Below are positions 5,458 to 20,163 of a DNA stretch of 64,000 nt, piece by piece. Positions within the stretch are counted from its first letter, which is position 1. Each line of letters starts with the position of its first letter. Source of the stretch: Campylobacter vicugnae (GTDB lineage: Bacteria > Campylobacterota > Campylobacteria > Campylobacterales > Campylobacteraceae). The position numbers were made by a program, and so were the translations under genes. Under the pieces are notes generated by a model that was given only the letters and a program-made list of their open reading frames with translations, did no database searches and had not been told where the DNA came from. The stretch is from the NCBI RefSeq assembly GCF_002139875.1, contig NZ_CP018793.1, forward strand, positions 1,240,001-1,304,000, read 5' to 3'.

Positions 5458-5681
5458 TCAAAAATATTATCAAATATTATGTTAAAAATAATTTAAAAAT
5501 TAAATTTTATTAATAATTTTATTTTTATGTTATAAAGCTTATTTGGCTACTATTTTTATTGCATTAGTTATAATCTAAATCTATTAATTTTTCTTTAAAT
5601 TGATAAGCTTATTTAATGATTTAAATCTTTGTAAGTTAAATTTTATTAAAATCTAAATAGTTTATATCGTTGGAGTTGTTT
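5458..5681. promoter_or_regulatory. Divergent promoter region between type III and type II operons; cas9 -10 at 5569-5574
   Basis: The 224-bp, very AT-rich spacer separates two divergent CRISPR operons. On the plus strand, TATAAT at 5569-5574 preceded by AGT gives a good -10 for cas9, with a leader of about 100 nt. T-rich stretches upstream fit the weak -35 usage of this group. On the minus strand several AT-rich -10-like boxes lie at about 5460-5490, none clearly better than the others. GGAG at 5672-5675 is the cas9 ribosome site. Confidence 0.55.
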
Positions 5682-8600
5682 ATGAATGAGTTATCTATAA
5701 ATATCGATATGGGTGCTGCAAATAATGGCGTATTTATCGCTATCACAAATGAGGATTCTATAGTTTATAAAAATGCGTTTAATATATATTTTGATAAAAA
5801 TTTAACATTTTCTAAAAACGATAGAACCGCTCGTCGCCATGCTAGGCGTAGTTATGATAGAGATAGATTTATCTTAAGATTACTTAATGAGATTTTGCCT
5901 ATAAATAGCTTGAGTCAAAGTCAAAAAGAGATGATTTATGGACTTTTTAAAAATCGTGGCTTTAACTATCACAATATCGAATTTAATGAAAGCCTAGATG
6001 ATGATGTGGTTAAATTTTTAAATAGTTTAGATGGATATATATTTGGACTTAGTAAAAATAAAGATGAGTTTGAACAAGTTCTAAATGAGATAGTTGTAGA
6101 TCACTCAAATGATGAAATTAAAGAGATACTAGAAACTCAAAGTCAAATTCTAAGCAATATAGATAAAAAGAATAAAGAAGCTATAAAAGCTAGTAAAAAT
6201 ATACAAAGCCTACTTCAAAGCATTCGCAATGAAATTGATAAAAATAACAAACATAGAATTAGCTACTTAAAAGATATAAAAGAATTAATTTATAAAGATT
6301 GCGAATTTATAATTCAAAAATCTGATAAATTTGATAATTTAGATGAATTTTATAATTTTGTTGGAAATATTGCAAATTTCCAAACTCGAATTTTAAGAAG
6401 GTATTTTAATAATAAATATCTAGATAATATAAATTTTGATGATGCAAAACTAAAGAAAAATATAATAAGAAATATCAACTATATGGAGTATATAACTGAT
6501 ATACAAAAAAGTAATAAACTAAATATGTTAAATTCTTTAAAGACAAAATCAGCTTTAGAGTATCTAAAAAGCATTGACCCAGTAATTACTATCCCGCCAT
6601 ACGAAAATCGTAAAAATAAAAATCCACAAAAATGCAATACTTTAATACTAAATATTGACAAAATTACTCCAAGTCTAGTAAATTCAACTTATAAAATTTT
6701 AAATAGTGATGATTTTACGCATATAAGAAGAGATGAAAATGGTCAGTTAATTAGCATTAATGATATAGATGAAAATAATATCGCTAAATATTTACAAAGA
6801 GTATTAGATATCTCAAAAGAGAGCCTAATGGATACAGCTTTATATCCAAGAACTCTTGATAATAATAGCAAAATATTTGCTGATACTTTTAGGTTAAATA
6901 GTGATGAAATTAGAGAATTTAAAGAGTTTGCTAGGAGATACTATAACGAAGTAGATAGTGCAAAAAAAGGAATAATAACTAATGATTTATTAATTCCGTG
7001 TGGCAAAAATACACCACATAAAAATAGAAATAAAAATGAGCTTATATCAGCTCTTTTTGGTAAAAATATTACTAAAGATGATGTAATTAGCCTTGAAGAA
7101 TTTATGCTAAAAAATAAGATAAAAGGCAATAGGGGCTATAAAGGGTTTTTTGAGAATTTAAACGAATTAAAAAAGAGTTATCAAAATAGCTTTTATCACA
7201 ATCTAAATAATGATGAAATTAACGATAAAGATATCCAAGCAATCCTAGAGCTATATCCAAAAGTCGCTCAAAATATCAGTAATCACAATAGTATATTTGA
7301 GTTTAAGCTCCCATTTGATAAAAGCAATTTAAATACAAATATCAACTATCTAAGCCAGTTAGGAGATATAATCTACGATGAGAAAAATCGTGGATTTTTA
7401 AAGACTTGCAAATGTCATACTTTAGAAAATTTAATTCGTTCTGGCTCGCAAAATGCTATTTGCACTAGACTACCATCTAACTCAGCTAGGCTTATCAATG
7501 GCAAAATAGAGATTGTTCTAAATCGTCTAGCGTATGAAATTAGCACCGCTCTTAAGCCAGAAATCTTGCAAGATATCTCATATATATCTATAAATGTAGA
7601 GATGAATAAATTTAGTTTTGAAAATAGTGCTAGCAACTTAAATTTAATAAGCAAACGCCAAAAAGCTAAAGAGATAATTTGCCCATACTCAGGCCAAAAA
7701 ATAGATGAAAGCAATTGTGAGTATGATCATATCTTGCCTCGTTCTAAAGGCTTATATAATTCTAGAGCAAATTTAATCCCAGCTAGCTCCACTGCCAATC
7801 TACAAAAGAGCAATCAAAGCTATACCTTAGAAAATTTACACCAAAAATATCTAGACTCAATCTATGAAAAAATAAAGGTAGAAAATCTTGATGAATTTAA
7901 AAATTTTATAGATACACAGGTGGCAAAGATAAATATTAATAAATTTACAAATTTTGATAATCTTAGTAGCCTAGAACAGATCGCACTTAGGCACGCTCTA
8001 TTTTATAAAGATTCAAATAGTTTTGCCAAAGCACTTGAAATTCTAAAACTAGATAGAATCAAGACCCACTCCAATGGAACTCAAAAGCGTTTTGTAAATC
8101 TTTTAATACAAAAGATAAAAGATAGGCTAAATAGTTCAAATCAAAATCTTGAATTTAGCGTTAATTTTATTAATGCAGAACTCGTAAGTGCAATTAGAAA
8201 TGAATTAAGCAAAGAAGATAAAGAGCTACAAAAAGCTAAAATTCAAGATAGCCATAGCCACTGCATTGATGCTAGTATAGTATTTTATTACGCTAATAGC
8301 AAACTTATAAATAACTCAAAAGGTCAGCGTGAATTTAAGTATGATTATAATCATATTAAGCCAGAGTATAGCAATAAGATAACTATGCAAAGCAAAAAAT
8401 ATCTAGAGTTAAACTCTAATAAAATAGCTCGTAAAAAGCTATTTGATGATGGTGTGTATTCGCTAGTTTATGAAAATGCCAATATATTAAAAGATAAAGA
8501 AGCTAGTATCTTGCTTGACCTTGGGCTTTTGCATACTAAAGAAAATGGCAAAAAGGTTGCAATAACTAGCGATTTAAAATCAAGTAAATTTTATATAAGC

Positions 8601-9518
8601 ACACATAAAGTTTTTGATCTATTATTTAAAGCCTTTAATGATAGCGATATTAAATTATTAAATAAACTCAAATTTCTAGATGATCATCTATCTTTTTATA
8701 TACGAAAAGATATATTTGCTATTATAAAAGACAAAGATAAAAGTAGTATGTTTTTTACCAATAAAAATGAGTTAAAAGAACCAGATACAAAAATAAAAAC
8801 AAAAAATATCGATAAATTCTACCATATCTTAAAAGCTAATGAAAGCAAGATTATAGAGATAAAAGATGACAAAAACATATTAAAACATCAAGAGATAAAA
8901 GAGCTGTTTAAAGAGTGTTTTTATACTAAAGAAGCCAAAAGAAGTAGAAACAAATCTCGTATAATCTACTCTTTGCCTATAAAAGCAATTAAAAGCCCTA
9001 ACTATATTATAAGGCAAAATGGCGGATATGCTGGACTTAGCAATTCAGCTATAGCTACTAAAACATATATAGATTTAGATAGTAAAAATATAATCAAAAT
9101 TCCATTTTTTAGCAAAAATATACTGCCTTGTAAAATAGCAGATATAATAAATATAATTAAATCAAAATCTAAAAATATAAAGCAAATTTACAAACTCCTA
9201 GTAATCAAAAATCTCCCATCAGCTATTACAAAACTTGAGTTTATAATCTCTCAAGCTAATAGACACGATATAGAGGTTGAATTTGATAAAAGCCAAATTG
9301 GAGATTATAATTTACTTGACCAAACTAGTCGTGATGAGTTTATAGATAAATATTTAAATGGTGAATTTAAAGAGCTACTAGGAAAACCAAGAGATAAGAA
9401 AATAACCATAATCAAAGATACAAAAGATAGCCTAATAATCAAATATTGCACTCAAACATCGGCTATACATCAAAAAATAATGCTAGATAATTTAATCGAT
9501 GAAACATCTAGTTCTTAA
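5682..9518 (+). CDS. cas9: Cas9, compact type II-B-like effector nuclease
   Basis: RNA-guided DNA endonuclease, 1278 aa from the ATG at 5682 (GGAG seven bases upstream decides it over the TTG at 5670). Domains in order: RuvC-I with INIDMGAANNGV (Asp9); arginine-rich bridge helix about 46-68 (RTARRHARRSYDRDR), as in Francisella Cas9; long REC lobe; RuvC-II with Glu640; HNH with CPYSGQKI and EYDHILPRS (His683) plus ANLIPASSTANLQKSN; RuvC-III with HSHCIDAS (His860, Asp863); then about 400 residues holding the PAM-interacting part. All catalytic residues are visible. II-B Cas9s are generally about 1400-1630 aa, so this one is small. Its end overlaps cas1 by 20 bases. Confidence 0.95.
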   Translation: MNELSINIDMGAANNGVFIAITNEDSIVYKNAFNIYFDKNLTFSKNDRTARRHARRSYDRDRFILRLLNEILPINSLSQSQKEMIYGLFKNRGFNYHNIEFNESLDDDVVKFLNSLDGYIFGLSKNKDEFEQVLNEIVVDHSNDEIKEILETQSQILSNIDKKNKEAIKASKNIQSLLQSIRNEIDKNNKHRISYLKDIKELIYKDCEFIIQKSDKFDNLDEFYNFVGNIANFQTRILRRYFNNKYLDNINFDDAKLKKNIIRNINYMEYITDIQKSNKLNMLNSLKTKSALEYLKSIDPVITIPPYENRKNKNPQKCNTLILNIDKITPSLVNSTYKILNSDDFTHIRRDENGQLISINDIDENNIAKYLQRVLDISKESLMDTALYPRTLDNNSKIFADTFRLNSDEIREFKEFARRYYNEVDSAKKGIITNDLLIPCGKNTPHKNRNKNELISALFGKNITKDDVISLEEFMLKNKIKGNRGYKGFFENLNELKKSYQNSFYHNLNNDEINDKDIQAILELYPKVAQNISNHNSIFEFKLPFDKSNLNTNINYLSQLGDIIYDEKNRGFLKTCKCHTLENLIRSGSQNAICTRLPSNSARLINGKIEIVLNRLAYEISTALKPEILQDISYISINVEMNKFSFENSASNLNLISKRQKAKEIICPYSGQKIDESNCEYDHILPRSKGLYNSRANLIPASSTANLQKSNQSYTLENLHQKYLDSIYEKIKVENLDEFKNFIDTQVAKININKFTNFDNLSSLEQIALRHALFYKDSNSFAKALEILKLDRIKTHSNGTQKRFVNLLIQKIKDRLNSSNQNLEFSVNFINAELVSAIRNELSKEDKELQKAKIQDSHSHCIDASIVFYYANSKLINNSKGQREFKYDYNHIKPEYSNKITMQSKKYLELNSNKIARKKLFDDGVYSLVYENANILKDKEASILLDLGLLHTKENGKKVAITSDLKSSKFYISTHKVFDLLFKAFNDSDIKLLNKLKFLDDHLSFYIRKDIFAIIKDKDKSSMFFTNKNELKEPDTKIKTKNIDKFYHILKANESKIIEIKDDKNILKHQEIKELFKECFYTKEAKRSRNKSRIIYSLPIKAIKSPNYIIRQNGGYAGLSNSAIATKTYIDLDSKNIIKIPFFSKNILPCKIADIINIIKSKSKNIKQIYKLLVIKNLPSAITKLEFIISQANRHDIEVEFDKSQIGDYNLLDQTSRDEFIDKYLNGEFKELLGKPRDKKITIIKDTKDSLIIKYCTQTSAIHQKIMLDNLIDETSSS

Positions 9519-10456
9519 TAGTTTTGGGCTATTTTTAGGATTAAAATCTCAAAGGATAGTAATATATCAAAATAAAGAGATAATAAAAGAGATAGCCCTT
9601 AAATCATTAAAAACCATATCTATAAATTCAAATGGCATAACCATTTCTAGCGATTTAATTTTTGCTTGCAGTGTGCGTGGGATAAAGATTTTTTATCAAA
9701 GTTTTAATACATTTAGTGCTACTCATACACTTTATGAACATAAAGGAGTAAATGTATTAAAACAGCAATTTTCATCCAAAGATAATGCCAAAGGATTGAT
9801 ACTAGCCAAAGAGTTAATAATCGGCAAGATTAAAAATCAACGCTCCACAATTTTATACTTTTCTAGAAATCAAAATAACGAACAAAAAAATGCAACATTA
9901 ATAAGTATGCAAAAAGCAATCAATACACTAAAAAGCTCAAAAATCATAGATACAAATGATATATTTAGCATTGAGGCTAATGCTGCTCATAAATATTTTG
10001 AATTTCTTAAATTTAACTCTCTTTTACCATCTAGTTTTGAACACCGTACTAAAAGGGCAAGCAGCGAAATATCAAACCAAGCTTTAAATTACGGCTATGC
10101 TATACTATTAAACATAATCTATAAAAGCATTATAAATGCCGGATTAAATCCATATTTTGGAGTTTTGCATACTATGCGAAGTGCTAAGCCATCTTTGGCT
10201 TTAGATATTATGGAGGAGTATAGAAGCTTTATAGTAGATAGAAATATTATTAAAATTCGCTCATCTCTCAAAGGCGAATTAAATGCAGAATTAAAAAAAA
10301 GTAATAGCTTCAAATATACTAAATTCATTAAATAAAAAGCTTACCTATAATCACAAAAAGCTTACCCTAGAAAGTATTATCCAACGCCAAGTATATAAAA
10401 TTTCAGCATTTTTTTGCGGTGATAGCAAGTATAAATCATATATATTTAGGTGGTAA
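9499..10456 (+). pseudogene. cas1: cas1 integrase, frameshifted near the 3' end
   Basis: Cas1 forms the spacer integrase with Cas2. The open frame from 9499 gives 278 aa and stops at 10333-10335. The catalytic set is present: Glu159 (SIEANAAHKYFE), His224 (FGVLHTMRSA) and Asp236/Glu239-240 (SLALDIMEEYR). After the stop the next frame continues as KKLTLESIIQRQVYKIS and ends KSYIFRW just before cas2, which is a normal Cas1 C-terminus. Skipping one base between 10293 and 10335 (an A8 run is at 10293-10300) restores about 318 aa, the size of Francisella Cas1. Either a real lesion, a slippery tract or a sequencing error. A 12-bp direct repeat (AAAAAGCTTACC) at 10334 and 10355 lies in the same stretch. 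Confidence 0.85.
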
Positions 10457-10725
10457 ATGAGATATCTAATCTGTTACGATATAGAAGATAATAAAACAGA
10501 ACCAAGCTATTTGAAAGACTAAAAGATTTTGGGCTTTTAGCTGTGCAAAAATCAGTATTTTATGGGGAGCTAAGCAAAGCTGAAAAACTCGCTATTAAAG
10601 AGCTTTTATCTAAATATTGCACTAAAGAAGATAAAGCTATTATCACATCTATAAATTTAGATTTTAATGATACTTTAGGCTATACCAAAGAGTATTTTGA
10701 GAGTAAAACATATGAGATTATTTAG
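10457..10725 (+). pseudogene. cas2: cas2, one-base deletion early in the gene
   Basis: Cas2 bridges two Cas1 dimers in the adaptation complex. The ATG at 10457 directly follows the cas1-frame stop and reads MRYLICYDIEDNKT, a classic Cas2 start with the metal-binding Asp. The frame then ends at 10520-10522. A one-base shift after about 10498 gives RTKLFERLKDFGLLAVQ and continues to a stop at 10723-10725. The total of 269 nt is one short of a clean 89-aa gene. A missing A at ACA-GAACC is the simplest repair. cas4 starts on the next base. Confidence 0.85.
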
Positions 10726-11292
10726 ATGATTTTAGTTAGTCATATTAGACAGTTTGTATTTTGTCCTAGGATTTTATATTTTTATACATTTTGCGATATC
10801 AAACCAGTATATCCAGAGTATGTAAATTCAGGCTCACAGTATCATAATAAACAAAATGAGCTATTTAAAAATAGAAAATTTATTAAATTTAAACTACCAA
10901 TTATAAAAGCACATAGTAATCTATATCTACAAGATTTATCTATGCAAGGAGTAGCAGATTTGGTGCTAGAGTGTCAAAATGAAATAATCGTAGCTGAGTT
11001 TAAAAATCAAACCAAGCCAATACTAAATAAAGGGACTAAAATGCAACTTATAGCCTACTCAAAACTAGCAAGTAAACATTTTAATAAGCCATTTTTTAAG
11101 ATAATGCTAATTTGCGGTAATAATCTTAAATTTAAGATATTTGATATAAAAAACGATGATTTAGCTCAATTTAATAGCACGATAGATAAGATTAATAAAA
11201 TGTTAAATCAAGAGTTATTTCCACAAAGTTGCGCTAGTATAGCTGCTTGTATGCAGTGTGAATTTAAAAACTACTGTGATGATAGAGAATAA
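10726..11292 (+). CDS. cas4: Cas4 RecB-like exonuclease with Fe-S cluster cysteines
   Basis: Cas4 trims prespacers and helps choose PAM-correct ones for Cas1-Cas2. At 188 aa it has Cys13 (FVFCPRILYF) and the C-terminal triad CMQCEFKNYC, the four-cysteine Fe-S set. The RecB nuclease motifs are GVADLVLE and EIIVAEFKNQ (Asp, Glu-x-Lys). The ATG abuts the cas2 stop. A cas4 with cas9 points to subtype II-B (II-C2 is the only other subtype I know with cas4). The gene is intact, unlike its two upstream partners. Confidence 0.93.
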   Translation: MILVSHIRQFVFCPRILYFYTFCDIKPVYPEYVNSGSQYHNKQNELFKNRKFIKFKLPIIKAHSNLYLQDLSMQGVADLVLECQNEIIVAEFKNQTKPILNKGTKMQLIAYSKLASKHFNKPFFKIMLICGNNLKFKIFDIKNDDLAQFNSTIDKINKMLNQELFPQSCASIAACMQCEFKNYCDDRE

Positions 11293-11382
11293 TACCGGGG
11301 GTGCCAAAGGCAGTTGCCCCGATCTGTTAACACCTTTAGGTGATTTCAAACGCTAAAGAGTTAATCTGTAGTATAATTTGCA
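11293..11382 (-). ncRNA. tracrRNA candidate with anti-repeat and 3' hairpins
   Basis: Read on the minus strand, 11382-11342 is a degenerate repeat: TGCAAATTATACTACAG, then TTAACTC, a short TTTAGC insertion and GTTTGAAATC. It parallels the array repeat base for base over most of its length, so its RNA would pair with the crRNA repeat. It is followed by a CACC-TAAA-GGTG hairpin (11331-11342) and a strong stem built from CGGGG/CCCCG and TGCC-TTT-GGCA (11297-11321), ending in TATTATT. A -10 box lies at 11388-11393. Location between cas4 and the array, opposite to the cas genes, agrees with Francisella II-B loci. Confidence 0.85.
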
Positions 11383-11387
11383 TTTGT

Positions 11388-11393
11388 ATTATA
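11388..11393 (-). promoter_or_regulatory. -10 box for the tracrRNA
   Basis: On the minus strand the sequence reads TTAGTTATAATAC. TATAAT lies six to seven bases before the first base of the anti-repeat, so transcription would begin about 11381. A T-rich stretch upstream replaces a recognisable -35, as is usual in Campylobacter. Confidence 0.6.
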
Positions 11394-11397
11394 ACTA

Positions 11398-11450
11398 AAT
11401 TTTTCCACAAATTTGCTATTTTTAGCATTTTTTTTCAAAGTGGAAAAATT
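11398..11450. terminator. Nested inverted repeat between tracrRNA and array
   Basis: An 11-bp perfect inverted repeat (AATTTTTCCAC at 11398-11408, GTGGAAAAATT at 11440-11450) encloses a second small hairpin TGCTA-TTTT-TAGCA (11414-11427). On the plus strand the small hairpin is followed by eight T, a weak intrinsic terminator for the cas operon. The outer stem could also act on the minus strand to end the array transcript before the tracrRNA promoter. Which role is real cannot be settled by eye. Confidence 0.45.
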
Positions 11451-11502
11451 AATACCTCTAAACCATAGCCAAACGCCCATAAAATAGGCTAAATTTGGCT
11501 CA

Positions 11503-12275
11503 GTTGCAAATTATACCACAAACCAACTCGGTTTGAAACAAGAATGTCCTTTATCGACTTTAATTTCGCATGGTGTTGCAAATTATACCACAAACCAACT
11601 CGGTTTGAAACATTATCATAGGTGCTGTTTTAATTGCATCTGCTTGTTGCAAATTATACCACAAACCAACTCGGTTTGAAACACATTTGTGATTTGCTCA
11701 TTTACACTTGTAGCTAATGTTGCAAATTATACCACAAACCAACTCGGTTTGAAACATAGTAGAAAAATACCACTCTTCAAGCTCTTTAAAATCAGTTGCA
11801 AATTATACCACAAACCAACTCGGTTTGAAACTCCATATATACAGTATCATCTTGTCCTAAAATACCGTTGCAAATTATACCACAAACCAACTCGGTTTGA
11901 AACGCCTAAATTCTCTTTTTTATACTCGCTAATTGCCTCGTTGCAAATTATACCACAAACCAACTCGGTTTGAAACCTAACGGATAAAGGAGTTGCGGTA
12001 GTTCCATCTTTTGGTTGCAAATTATACCACAAACCAACTCGGTTTGAAACTAGTTTGAGCCTTTATGCTTTAGCTCTGTAATTCTAGTTGCAAATTATAC
12101 CACAAACCAACTCGGTTTGAAACAAAAGAGCCAAGTTGGGATAATTTAACAAAAGTCTTTAGTTGCAAATTATACCACAAACCAACTCGGTTTGAAACAT
12201 GGATTTAGTTAAACCAGCCATAACTGCATAATGAGCGGTTGCAAATTATACCACAAACCAACTCGGTTTGAAAAC
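11503..12275 (-). CRISPR. Type II-B-like CRISPR array, 11 repeats and 10 spacers
   Basis: Eleven copies of a 37-nt repeat, from GTTGCAAATTATACC to CTCGGTTTGAAAC on the plus strand, start at 11503, 11575, 11646, 11719, 11795, 11867, 11940, 12014, 12087, 12162 and 12238. All match except the last, which has an extra A (GAAAAC). Spacers are 34 to 39 nt. The tracrRNA position and the GTTTCA start on the minus strand (as in Francisella crRNA) set the crRNA strand as minus. On that strand each repeat contains TGG-TATAAT seven bases before its end, a ready-made extended -10. By eye I saw no spacer matching another part of this window. Confidence 0.98.
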
Positions 12276-12388
12276 AAATCTAAACATCTAATCAAATTTA
12301 AATATTATCTACTATTATATTAAATTTATTATCAAAATAGATTAGCTAGTTAAAGATATAATTTTATAAATTTATTTTTGCAATAATA
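12276..12388 (-). promoter_or_regulatory. AT-rich flank upstream of the array in the crRNA direction
   Basis: The 113 bases between the last repeat and the recO stop hold no gene. On the minus strand TATAAT at 12319-12314 could start an array transcript about 30 bases before the first repeat in that direction. The only imperfect repeat borders this flank, so it may be the old, distal end of the array rather than the acquisition leader. Confidence 0.4.
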
Positions 12389-17465: not shown

Positions 17466-17831
17466 ATGGAAATTAACAATATAAATTTAAATTTAAACTC
17501 TCTAACAGAGAATCAAAAACCTGCAAATACGCTATCAGCTAAGAAAAATGCCCAGCCAACTCTGCTAAAAGCTGACCCTAGTGGCTCTAGCTCAAAACTA
17601 GAAGAGACACTTGAAATGTTACAAGAACAGCTCAAAAAGCTTCAAGAGCAGCTAAGCAAAATTCAAGAGAAGGTAAAAGCTCTAAGCAGTAATCAAAATG
17701 AGTATTCTAAAAATATGATAATGGAGCTATCAAATCAAGCTTCAGCCATAATGGTGGAAATATCAGCTATAAACGCCCAGATTATAGAGCTGCAAAAGAA
17801 AATAACGGAGAGTGAAAAACAACAAGCTTGA
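17466..17831 (+). CDS. Coiled-coil protein, FlxA-like
   Basis: 121 aa, hydrophilic, no signal peptide. A low-complexity N-terminal 45 residues (NNINLNLNSL...) is followed by a continuous coiled coil from about residue 46 (LEETLEMLQEQLKKLQEQLSKIQEKV) to the end. This pattern resembles small FlxA-like proteins, but I am not certain. AAAGGGG precedes the ATG at 17466. It has its own hairpin downstream and converges on serC. Confidence 0.6.
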   Translation: MEINNINLNLNSLTENQKPANTLSAKKNAQPTLLKADPSGSSSKLEETLEMLQEQLKKLQEQLSKIQEKVKALSSNQNEYSKNMIMELSNQASAIMVEISAINAQIIELQKKITESEKQQA

Positions 17832-17885
17832 TAAGATTATTTTAGCTGAAATTTTTAAAATTTAGATATATTATAGAGATTAAAA

Positions 17886-17908
17886 GTGGCGTTCATATCA
17901 GACGCCAC
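17886..17908. terminator. Hairpin between the coiled-coil gene and serC
   Basis: GTGGCGT (17886-17892) pairs with ACGCCAC (17902-17908) around a 9-base loop. It lies in the 85-bp space between two converging genes and could serve both directions. On the minus strand it is followed by TTTTAATC, the better terminator context. Confidence 0.6.
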
Positions 17909-17916
17909 AGACTCAT

Positions 17917-18993
17917 TTAGCCATTTTTTCTCTCGAACTCTCTCATAAATTCACATAGAGTTTTTAGGTCATCCAGACTTACAGCGTTATAGATAGAGGC
18001 TCTTAAACCACCTAAAATCCTATGACCTTTTAGCCCTATCATACTATTTTCTTCAGCCTCTTTTACAAATTTCATATCAAGCTCAGCATTATCTGTAGTG
18101 AAGCTAACATTCATCAAGCTTCTAGAATCTTTTTTAGCAAACCCTCTATAAAAGCTAGAGCTATCTATTTGATTATAAATCATCGCGGCTTTTTGCATAT
18201 TTATCTTATTAATAGCACTTAATCCACCTTGCTCTTTTATCCAGTCAAGCACCAAATCAAACATATAAATTCCAAAAGTCGGCGGCGTATTAGCCAAAGA
18301 GTTAGCCTCGATTTGTGTAGTGTAGCGAAGTGGCGTAGGAACGCTATCTTTAACTCTTGCGGCTAAATCTTTTTTAACTATAACAATAGTTATACCAGCT
18401 GGACCAGCATTTTTTTGCGCTCCACCATAAAATAGTCCAATATTATGTGCTTTAAAATCAATTTCACGGCTTAAAAGATCAGAACTACTATCTACGACCA
18501 GTGGGCATTTTGGGCTTGGAAGGGTTGAATATTGGGTTCCATATATTGTATTATTAGAACAGATATATCCATAATCTGCATTATCGCTAAATTCTACCTT
18601 AGGAATATGATCAAACTTCACATCCTCGCTACTAGCAACAACCTTATAATTGATATTTTGGATTTTTGCTTCTTTAATTGCTTTTTGCGTCCAAACTCCA
18701 GTATTTGCATACTCAGCTACGCCACCAGCATAGATATTTAATGGAATTTGGGCAAATTGTAAAGTTGCTCCACCTTGTAAAAATAAAACTGCATAATCAT
18801 CGCCAATATTATAAAATTCACGAACCTTAGCAATTGCATTATTATGCAACTCTTCAAATACCTTGCCACGATGGCTAACCTCCATAATGCTAAAGCCAAG
18901 ACCGTGATAATCAGTAAATTCAGCCTGTGCACGCTCTAAAACTGCTAATGGAATCGCACTTGGACCAGCGCTAAAATTTAAAACTCTACTCAT
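17917..18993 (-). CDS. serC: Phosphoserine aminotransferase
   Basis: PLP enzyme converting 3-phosphohydroxypyruvate to phosphoserine in serine synthesis (also used in pyridoxal phosphate synthesis). The 358-aa sequence opens [20 protein letters not shown], has [16 protein letters not shown], the PLP lysine in [20 protein letters not shown], and ends with [17 protein letters not shown], all standard SerC features. It is the first gene after the xseA-ubiE block in the minus direction, 9 bases from xseA. Confidence 0.96.
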
Positions 18994-19002
18994 TTTATCC
19001 CC

Positions 19003-20163
19003 TTATTTTATTATTGCTTGTTTGCATAAATATTGTGAACTAATAGTAATCTCATCTCCGCTTTTTAACTCAGCTAATGAGATAATTTGTGAATCTTTTA
19101 TAATATGTGCCATATTTTTTGTTACCTTATAAAAGTACTCTTGTCTTTTAAAAACTAACTCAAATTTATCAATTTTTGATTGAGCTAAATTAAATTTTTT
19201 GTGTAAAAAGTTATCTAAATTTGACTTAAAACTATCTAAAGTAAGAGTAGCTAAGTTGATTTTTTGTTCTATTGCTTTAGATTTTATCTGTGCTTTGGCT
19301 AAATTCAGATAGCTTTCGCATTTGTTGAATTTAGATGATATAATCGCTTCAAGAGTATTTTGAATAATATCGAGTCTTTGATGAAGTTCATTGCTATCAG
19401 GCAAGAGATCAACCATCGCAGCAGTAGGCGTAAGAGATCTGTGATCAGCTACAAAATCACTAATACTATAATCAATTTCATGTCCTACGGCTGAGATAAT
19501 AGGTGTTTTAGCTTCATAAATTGCATAGGCTAGAGCCTCATCATTAAAACACCACAAATCCTCTTTAGACCCGCCACCTCTAGCAATGACAATTACATCT
19601 AACTCCATAGAATCAGCAAGTTTTAGCATCTTAATTAAATTTGCTGGAGCGCTATTTCCTTGAACTAAGGAATTAAATAGATAAAACTTAGGTAAAATAT
19701 ATCTATTGCTAATAACTCTATACATATCAGCAAATGCTGCTGAGCTAGCACTTGTAATGATTCCTATTTTGCTTGGATATTTTGGTAGTGGTTTTTTATG
19801 CATTTTATCAAATAATCCAGCAAGAGCTAGACGCTCTTTGAGCTGATTAAATGCAAGTTCAAGCTCGCCTATGCCAATTGGAATAATACGGCTAGCTATA
19901 AATTGGTAGCTACCATTTGGGCTATAGATTGAAAGCTTACCAATTAGCGTAACTTTCATACCATCTTTAACTTCAAATTTGATATTTTGATTGGCAAATT
20001 TATAAATAGCAACGCTAATAGTTGATCTTTCATCTTTAAGAGAGAAGTACCAATGGCCACTATTATGTTTAATCAAACGGCTAATCTCGCCTTCAACCTC
20101 TACAGAATTAAAATGAGACTCTAATAACGCCTTAGCCGACTCATTTAGATCGCTTACTGTCAT
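19003..20163 (-). CDS. xseA: Exodeoxyribonuclease VII large subunit
   Basis: Large subunit of the single-strand exonuclease used in mismatch repair and recombination. The N-terminal OB fold is clear (VEVEGEISRLIKHNSGHWYFSLKD), followed by the nuclease domain with IGIITSASSAAFADM, DVIVIARGGGSKEDLWCFND and SAVGHEIDYSISDFVADHRS. The C-terminal half is coiled coil. 386 aa, slightly shorter than E. coli. The start overlaps ubiE by four bases. xseB is not in the window. Confidence 0.95.
   Translation of the reverse strand: MTVSDLNESAKALLESHFNSVEVEGEISRLIKHNSGHWYFSLKDERSTISVAIYKFANQNIKFEVKDGMKVTLIGKLSIYSPNGSYQFIASRIIPIGIGELELAFNQLKERLALAGLFDKMHKKPLPKYPSKIGIITSASSAAFADMYRVISNRYILPKFYLFNSLVQGNSAPANLIKMLKLADSMELDVIVIARGGGSKEDLWCFNDEALAYAIYEAKTPIISAVGHEIDYSISDFVADHRSLTPTAAMVDLLPDSNELHQRLDIIQNTLEAIISSKFNKCESYLNLAKAQIKSKAIEQKINLATLTLDSFKSNLDNFLHKKFNLAQSKIDKFELVFKRQEYFYKVTKNMAHIIKDSQIISLAELKSGDEITISSQYLCKQAIIK

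Follow-up and report, generated by a model that had tools for sequence, protein, structure and literature searches.

Extended -10 boxes in the repeats of a Campylobacter type II-B CRISPR array: predicted promoters of individual crRNAs

Promoters carried inside CRISPR repeats have been described for type II-C systems (PMC3656092, PMC4607530, PMC7038990, PMC8616872). In Campylobacter jejuni and Neisseria, each repeat contains an extended -10 element on the crRNA strand, the array converges with the cas operon and the degenerate repeat is the first to be transcribed (PMC3656092, PMC4607530), all of which recur in the locus described here; PMC4607530 also reports that II-C repeats have a -10 box and II-A repeats lack one. 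The first transcribed base of the C. jejuni crRNAs is the fifth after the box, and the repeat is processed by RNase III as well, alongside these individual promoters; the housekeeping promoters of that species, defined from 8,019 mapped starts, read TGxTATAAT without a clear -35 element (PMC3656092). An extended -10 at the repeat end was likewise noted from sequence in Clostridium cellulolyticum and proposed as an internal promoter (PMC7038990), although that system is II-C and belongs to a Firmicute.

Type II-B systems, represented by Wolinella succinogenes, Francisella novicida, Sutterella, Legionella and Parasutterella (PsCas9), resemble our locus in the order cas9-cas1-cas2-cas4, in 37-nt repeats starting GTTTCA, in an array opposite to the cas genes and a tracrRNA that adjoins the array, and, for FnCas9, in an NG-type PAM (PMC3936727, PMC4607530). 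One review groups II-B with II-A processing (PMC8616872), and the available text of PMC4607530 prints four II-B repeats with no statement about promoters in them. The earlier note on this DNA knew of no II-B system reported to have repeat promoters; we also found no such claim in the literature, mostly non-subscription papers, so an earlier report is possible. Here we describe an array of this type in a 64-kb stretch of Campylobacter vicugnae DNA (the window; 32% GC) and compare its repeats with those of related loci. We consider it probable that each repeat of this array carries a sigma-70 extended -10 promoter on the crRNA strand, giving every spacer a separate primary transcript.

The locus, its subtype and its crRNA strand

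The array consists of eleven 37-nt repeats spaced 71-76 nt apart (Table 1). On the minus strand the repeat reads GTTTCAAACCGAGTTGGTTTGTGGTATAATTTGCAAC, and the copy at 12238-12274, first in the order of transcription, has a single mismatch to the consensus. As the earlier note had proposed, this is a cas4-containing II-B system, on which the Cas9 tree, the profiles and cas4 agree. Cas9 matches the PADLOC Cas9b profile (4.5e-65) and the NCBIfam II-B model (9.7e-51, but at 173 bits against a cut-off of 399), and is shorter than in the II-B systems named above; in a tree of Cas9s of the phylum it groups with Wolinella-type II-B sequences, apart from II-C and II-A (SH-aLRT 100). The nearest solved structures are chains 9ko9 and 8umf, followed by 5b2o, each labelled only Cas9. 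Cas4 matches PADLOC Cas4_II (1.1e-75), csn2 is absent, and no ORF of at least 90 aa other than cas1 and cas4 lies between cas9 and the array. Array and tracrRNA run opposite to the cas genes, as described for II-B (PMC3936727), with the tracrRNA adjoining cas4.

Compared with the II-C systems of C. jejuni and Neisseria, the repeat is 37 rather than 36 nt long, cas4 is present and Cas9 belongs to another subtype; a II-C identity was ruled out, since Cas9 falls outside the II-C clade and cas4 is there. The cas2 frame is broken close to an A-run in the early part of the gene, and is intact in locus L043; either spacer acquisition is impaired at this locus or the break is a sequencing error. A second system lies in the same genome outside the window (L080:7652-13065, contig G000:C1), an intact II-C locus with cas9, cas1, cas2 and 11 repeats. 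Its repeats end in TGTTATAAT, which is the known II-C design, so that, as read from sequence, II-B and II-C box designs stand side by side in one genome.

Table 1. Coordinates of features in the window; repeats are numbered in the order of transcription
Feature	Position	Strand	Remark
cas9	5670-9518	plus	type II-B; 1282 aa with TTG taken as start codon
cas1	9499-10335	plus	intact
cas2	10457-10725	plus	reading frame interrupted; intact in relatives
cas4	10726-11292	plus	intact
tracrRNA 3' part	11290-11343	minus	with G/C hairpin; extent and end inferred
tracrRNA anti-repeat	11344-11382	minus	pairing with nearly entire repeat
TATAAT of presumed tracrRNA promoter	11388-11393	minus	
Conserved leader	11394-11502	minus	on the downstream side of the array in crRNA direction, before the tracrRNA gene
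Leader motif GTGGAAAAA	11400-11408	minus	
Leader motif TTTTTCCAC	11440-11448	minus	
CRISPR array	11503-12274	minus	crRNA strand; 11 repeats of 37 nt, 10 spacers of 34-39 nt
Spacer 6	11832-11866	minus	34/35 nt match to tail-sheath genes of three Campylobacter phages; 3' flank TGG
TGGTATAAT, repeat 1	12245-12253	minus	repeat off consensus only at its first base
TGGTATAAT, repeat 2	12169-12177	minus	
TGGTATAAT, repeat 3	12094-12102	minus	
TGGTATAAT, repeat 4	12021-12029	minus	
TGGTATAAT, repeat 5	11947-11955	minus	
TGGTATAAT, repeat 6	11874-11882	minus	
TGGTATAAT, repeat 7	11802-11810	minus	
TGGTATAAT, repeat 8	11726-11734	minus	
TGGTATAAT, repeat 9	11653-11661	minus	
TGGTATAAT, repeat 10	11582-11590	minus	
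TGGTATAAT, repeat 11	11510-11518	minus	leader-side; would read into leader and tracrRNA gene

That crRNAs are read from the minus strand, also a claim of the earlier note, is shown by the pairing of the tracrRNA anti-repeat and by a phage protospacer flanked 3' by NGG, that of spacer 6, whose three phage matches count as one observation because the phages are homologous. The tracrRNA gene, also encoded on the minus strand, sits between the array and cas4, about 120 nt downstream of the leader-side repeat, and in most loci compared it comes with a -10-like box of its own. Its anti-repeat forms a duplex with almost the full length of the minus-strand repeat, box included. An Rfam scan of the locus gave no match. 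The plus strand of the anti-repeat contains TAGTATAAT at 11369-11377, pointing toward the array and antisense to the crRNA, which may either result from the pairing or act as an antisense promoter.

The box in the window and in related repeats

The sequence TGGTATAAT occupies repeat positions 22-30 in 11/11 repeats on the minus strand, leaving 7 nt to the repeat end, and equals the C. jejuni housekeeping consensus at every specified base (PMC3656092); the earlier note's description of a full-consensus extended -10 element in each repeat, in the crRNA direction, thus holds. There are 12 exact matches in the window against 1.3 expected, and 11 of the 12 are inside array repeats. For the looser TGnTATAAT, composition predicts about 11 matches per 64 kb, and 11 occur outside the array. 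By our own arithmetic, from composition only, the chance of TGnTATAAT in one 37-nt repeat on a given strand is about 0.0025, and none of 3000 dinucleotide shuffles of the window repeat matched as well. We did not treat the 11 boxes as independent matches: the repeats are copies of one, so that together the boxes amount to a single event. Given this and the expected background of TGnTATAAT, the match is modest evidence, and the weight of the promoter case rests on the comparison of sequences between relatives.

For this comparison II-B arrays were gathered from Campylobacterota genomes, and the repeats of Francisella, Legionella and Sutterella were taken only from a table in PMC4607530. The plasmid and phage collections held no II-B Cas9 relatives, and three genomes with weak Cas9 matches (L056-L058) had no array nearby. 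On a tree of nine repeats of Campylobacter and Arcobacter type, the window's own and those of eight relatives, the TATAAT hexamer (positions 25-30) underwent 0 changes, against 31 at positions 10-24; the chance of an unchanged hexamer is 0.017 when the rates of all 37 sites are shuffled, and 0.0025 for sites 10-37 only. Positions 1-8 are also invariant and positions 31-37 moderately conserved (7 changes), so constraints from the integrase or from pairing act on the repeat as well. The tracrRNA follows the variable repeat positions by compensating changes. Since many such compensated changes occur at positions 10-24 and none at 25-30, pairing alone would not be expected to freeze the hexamer.

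Where the hexamer has gone from its usual place, in L045, L046 and L047, TGnTAGAAT stands five nt upstream, as TGATAGAAT in the first two and TGCTAGAAT in the third. L044 keeps TATAAT without the TGn. The Wolinella-type repeat of L051 (G252), so named because it is identical to the W. succinogenes repeat printed in PMC4607530, has TGCTATAAA as its box. The box, perfect in the window, is weaker in the Wolinella-type L051 and in L052, L053, F. novicida and Sutterella, and is absent from the Legionella repeat as scored in the shuffle test. In that test repeats were scored against the published consensus and compared with dinucleotide shuffles, using seven divergent II-B representatives. The crRNA strand of II-B repeats was enriched (p = 1.8e-5; 0.0018 with the window left out) and the opposite strand was not (p = 0.98); the II-C positive control gave 1e-11, and the II-A negative control showed no enrichment (0.81). 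Conservation of TATAAT in related II-B repeats, which the earlier note had proposed as a check, is therefore found either in place or re-positioned, with L044, L051-L053 and Legionella as exceptions.

Flanks and polarity of the arrays

Beyond the transcription-last repeat the sequence is conserved across loci and includes the pair TTTTTCcac...GTGGAAAAA. The pair TTTTTCCAC ... GTGGAAAAA occurs, with variants, in most II-B loci examined and is possibly bound by a protein that acts in integration or regulation. On the other side of the arrays no conserved flank was found, the regions before the transcription-first repeat being unrelated between the loci compared; in the window a non-extended TATAAT lies there at 12314-12319. 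The degenerate repeats are those transcribed first, with most of their changes in the 5' half. The box is kept in the degenerate first repeats of L046, L048, L049 and L054; it has one change each in the first repeats of L045 and L051, and some in that of the plus-strand array of L046. As the first repeat enters no mature crRNA, retention of its 3' part points to a role for the box.

The conserved leader and the decay of the repeats together suggest that new spacers enter on the leader side, downstream with respect to transcription, and the same polarity is described for II-C (PMC4607530). Spacers common to genomes, as a test of polarity, yielded only one shared spacer, within L046. In L045 two arrays flank the cas genes (6120-9242 and 17481-19981), each followed by its own leader and anti-repeat, so that the locus has two tracrRNA-like genes; two arrays are also present in L046.

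Transcription of single spacers and competing explanations

If the boxes are active, RNA polymerase would start 5-7 nt after each of them, at one of the last three repeat bases or at the first spacer base. The earlier note placed the start at the first spacer base, which lies within this range, but the range also takes in the last 3 nt of the repeat, and the fifth base after the box, the start in C. jejuni, is here the A of a C-A step within the repeat end. In II-C the last base of the box is also the last of the repeat, which places the start inside the spacer (at position 5 in C. jejuni; PMC3656092); the 7 nt that follow the box here would leave the full 34-39-nt spacer in the transcript. 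Each transcript would thus open with a full-length spacer and run into the next repeat, where the tracrRNA, encoded just past the leader, would form a duplex with nearly all of the repeat, and the 3' end of the crRNA would probably be set by RNase III with Cas9. The earlier note associated this design with crRNAs made without RNase III; we expect RNase III to cut the 3' side still, because the repeat:tracrRNA duplex is so long. As new spacers would lie last in any long transcript, repeat-borne promoters would express each one without a distant upstream promoter, and it is plausible, given the reversed polarity, that expression is independent of array length.

The strongest competitor, which we nevertheless regard as unlikely, is a single promoter before the first repeat, for instance the upstream TATAAT of the window, producing a long pre-crRNA that tracrRNA and RNase III cut; the box would then be kept for pairing, or for a Cas1-Cas2 integrase that reads the 3' end of the repeat. 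It accords with a duplex that covers the whole repeat, with the conservation of the first eight and last seven repeat bases, with the Legionella repeat, and with F. novicida, whose crRNAs and tracrRNA were seen by RNA sequencing and whose loci are drawn with a putative pre-crRNA promoter (PMC3936727). It does not account well for a hexamer that is fixed while compensated changes accumulate beside it, nor for TGnTAGAAT upstream in L045 and L047, which have lost the block at its usual place. Moreover, the conserved leader is downstream and the upstream flanks are not conserved, and II-A repeats lack the motif though they, too, pair with tracrRNA and are used in integration.

Alternatively, the boxes may be active for other ends, with transcription from the last repeat supplying the tracrRNA, or transcription of the leader aiding spacer integration. 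The leader-side repeat does read straight into the leader and toward the tracrRNA gene, and most C. jejuni tracrRNA species start at upstream promoters (PMC3656092); the tracrRNA gene has a box of its own in most loci, however, and a single repeat would suffice for such a role, although all repeats copy one. We judge this improbable. Least credible of all is that an AT-rich repeat happened to read TGGTATAAT and was copied 11 times with no promoter role, for although TGnTATAAT is as frequent outside the array as composition predicts, the enrichment in divergent II-B repeats is strand-specific even with the window left out, and the hexamer shows zero changes. Individual promotion of each crRNA from its own repeat is the reading that we prefer.

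A wider proposition, possible but on balance doubtful, is that individually promoted crRNAs are general in II-B, kept or re-made in the Campylobacter, Arcobacter-like, Wolinella, Sutterella and Francisella lineages, that they arose apart from those of II-C, and that they go with a reversed array polarity, in which spacers enter at the transcription-downstream end and are ill served by a single leader promoter. If the repeats do promote individual crRNAs, the rule of one precursor cut by RNase III would fail for II-B crRNAs, at least in Campylobacterota, and crRNA expression would be tied to polarity, with downstream entry of spacers matched by a promoter in every repeat. Guide 5' ends would carry the full 34-39-nt spacer, which would be useful in guide design for compact II-B Cas9s. 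The box would also offer a motif for calling the direction of II-B arrays, for more than 70% of which a standard direction predictor fails (PMC6737040).

Two further observations concern copies of the box in related loci. L048 and L050 have a broken cas9 reading frame, yet the box is kept in their arrays. Lone repeat copies lie off the arrays at L049:5593 and L050:17600, each with two mismatches and an intact box, and may be either remnants or scaRNA-like genes.
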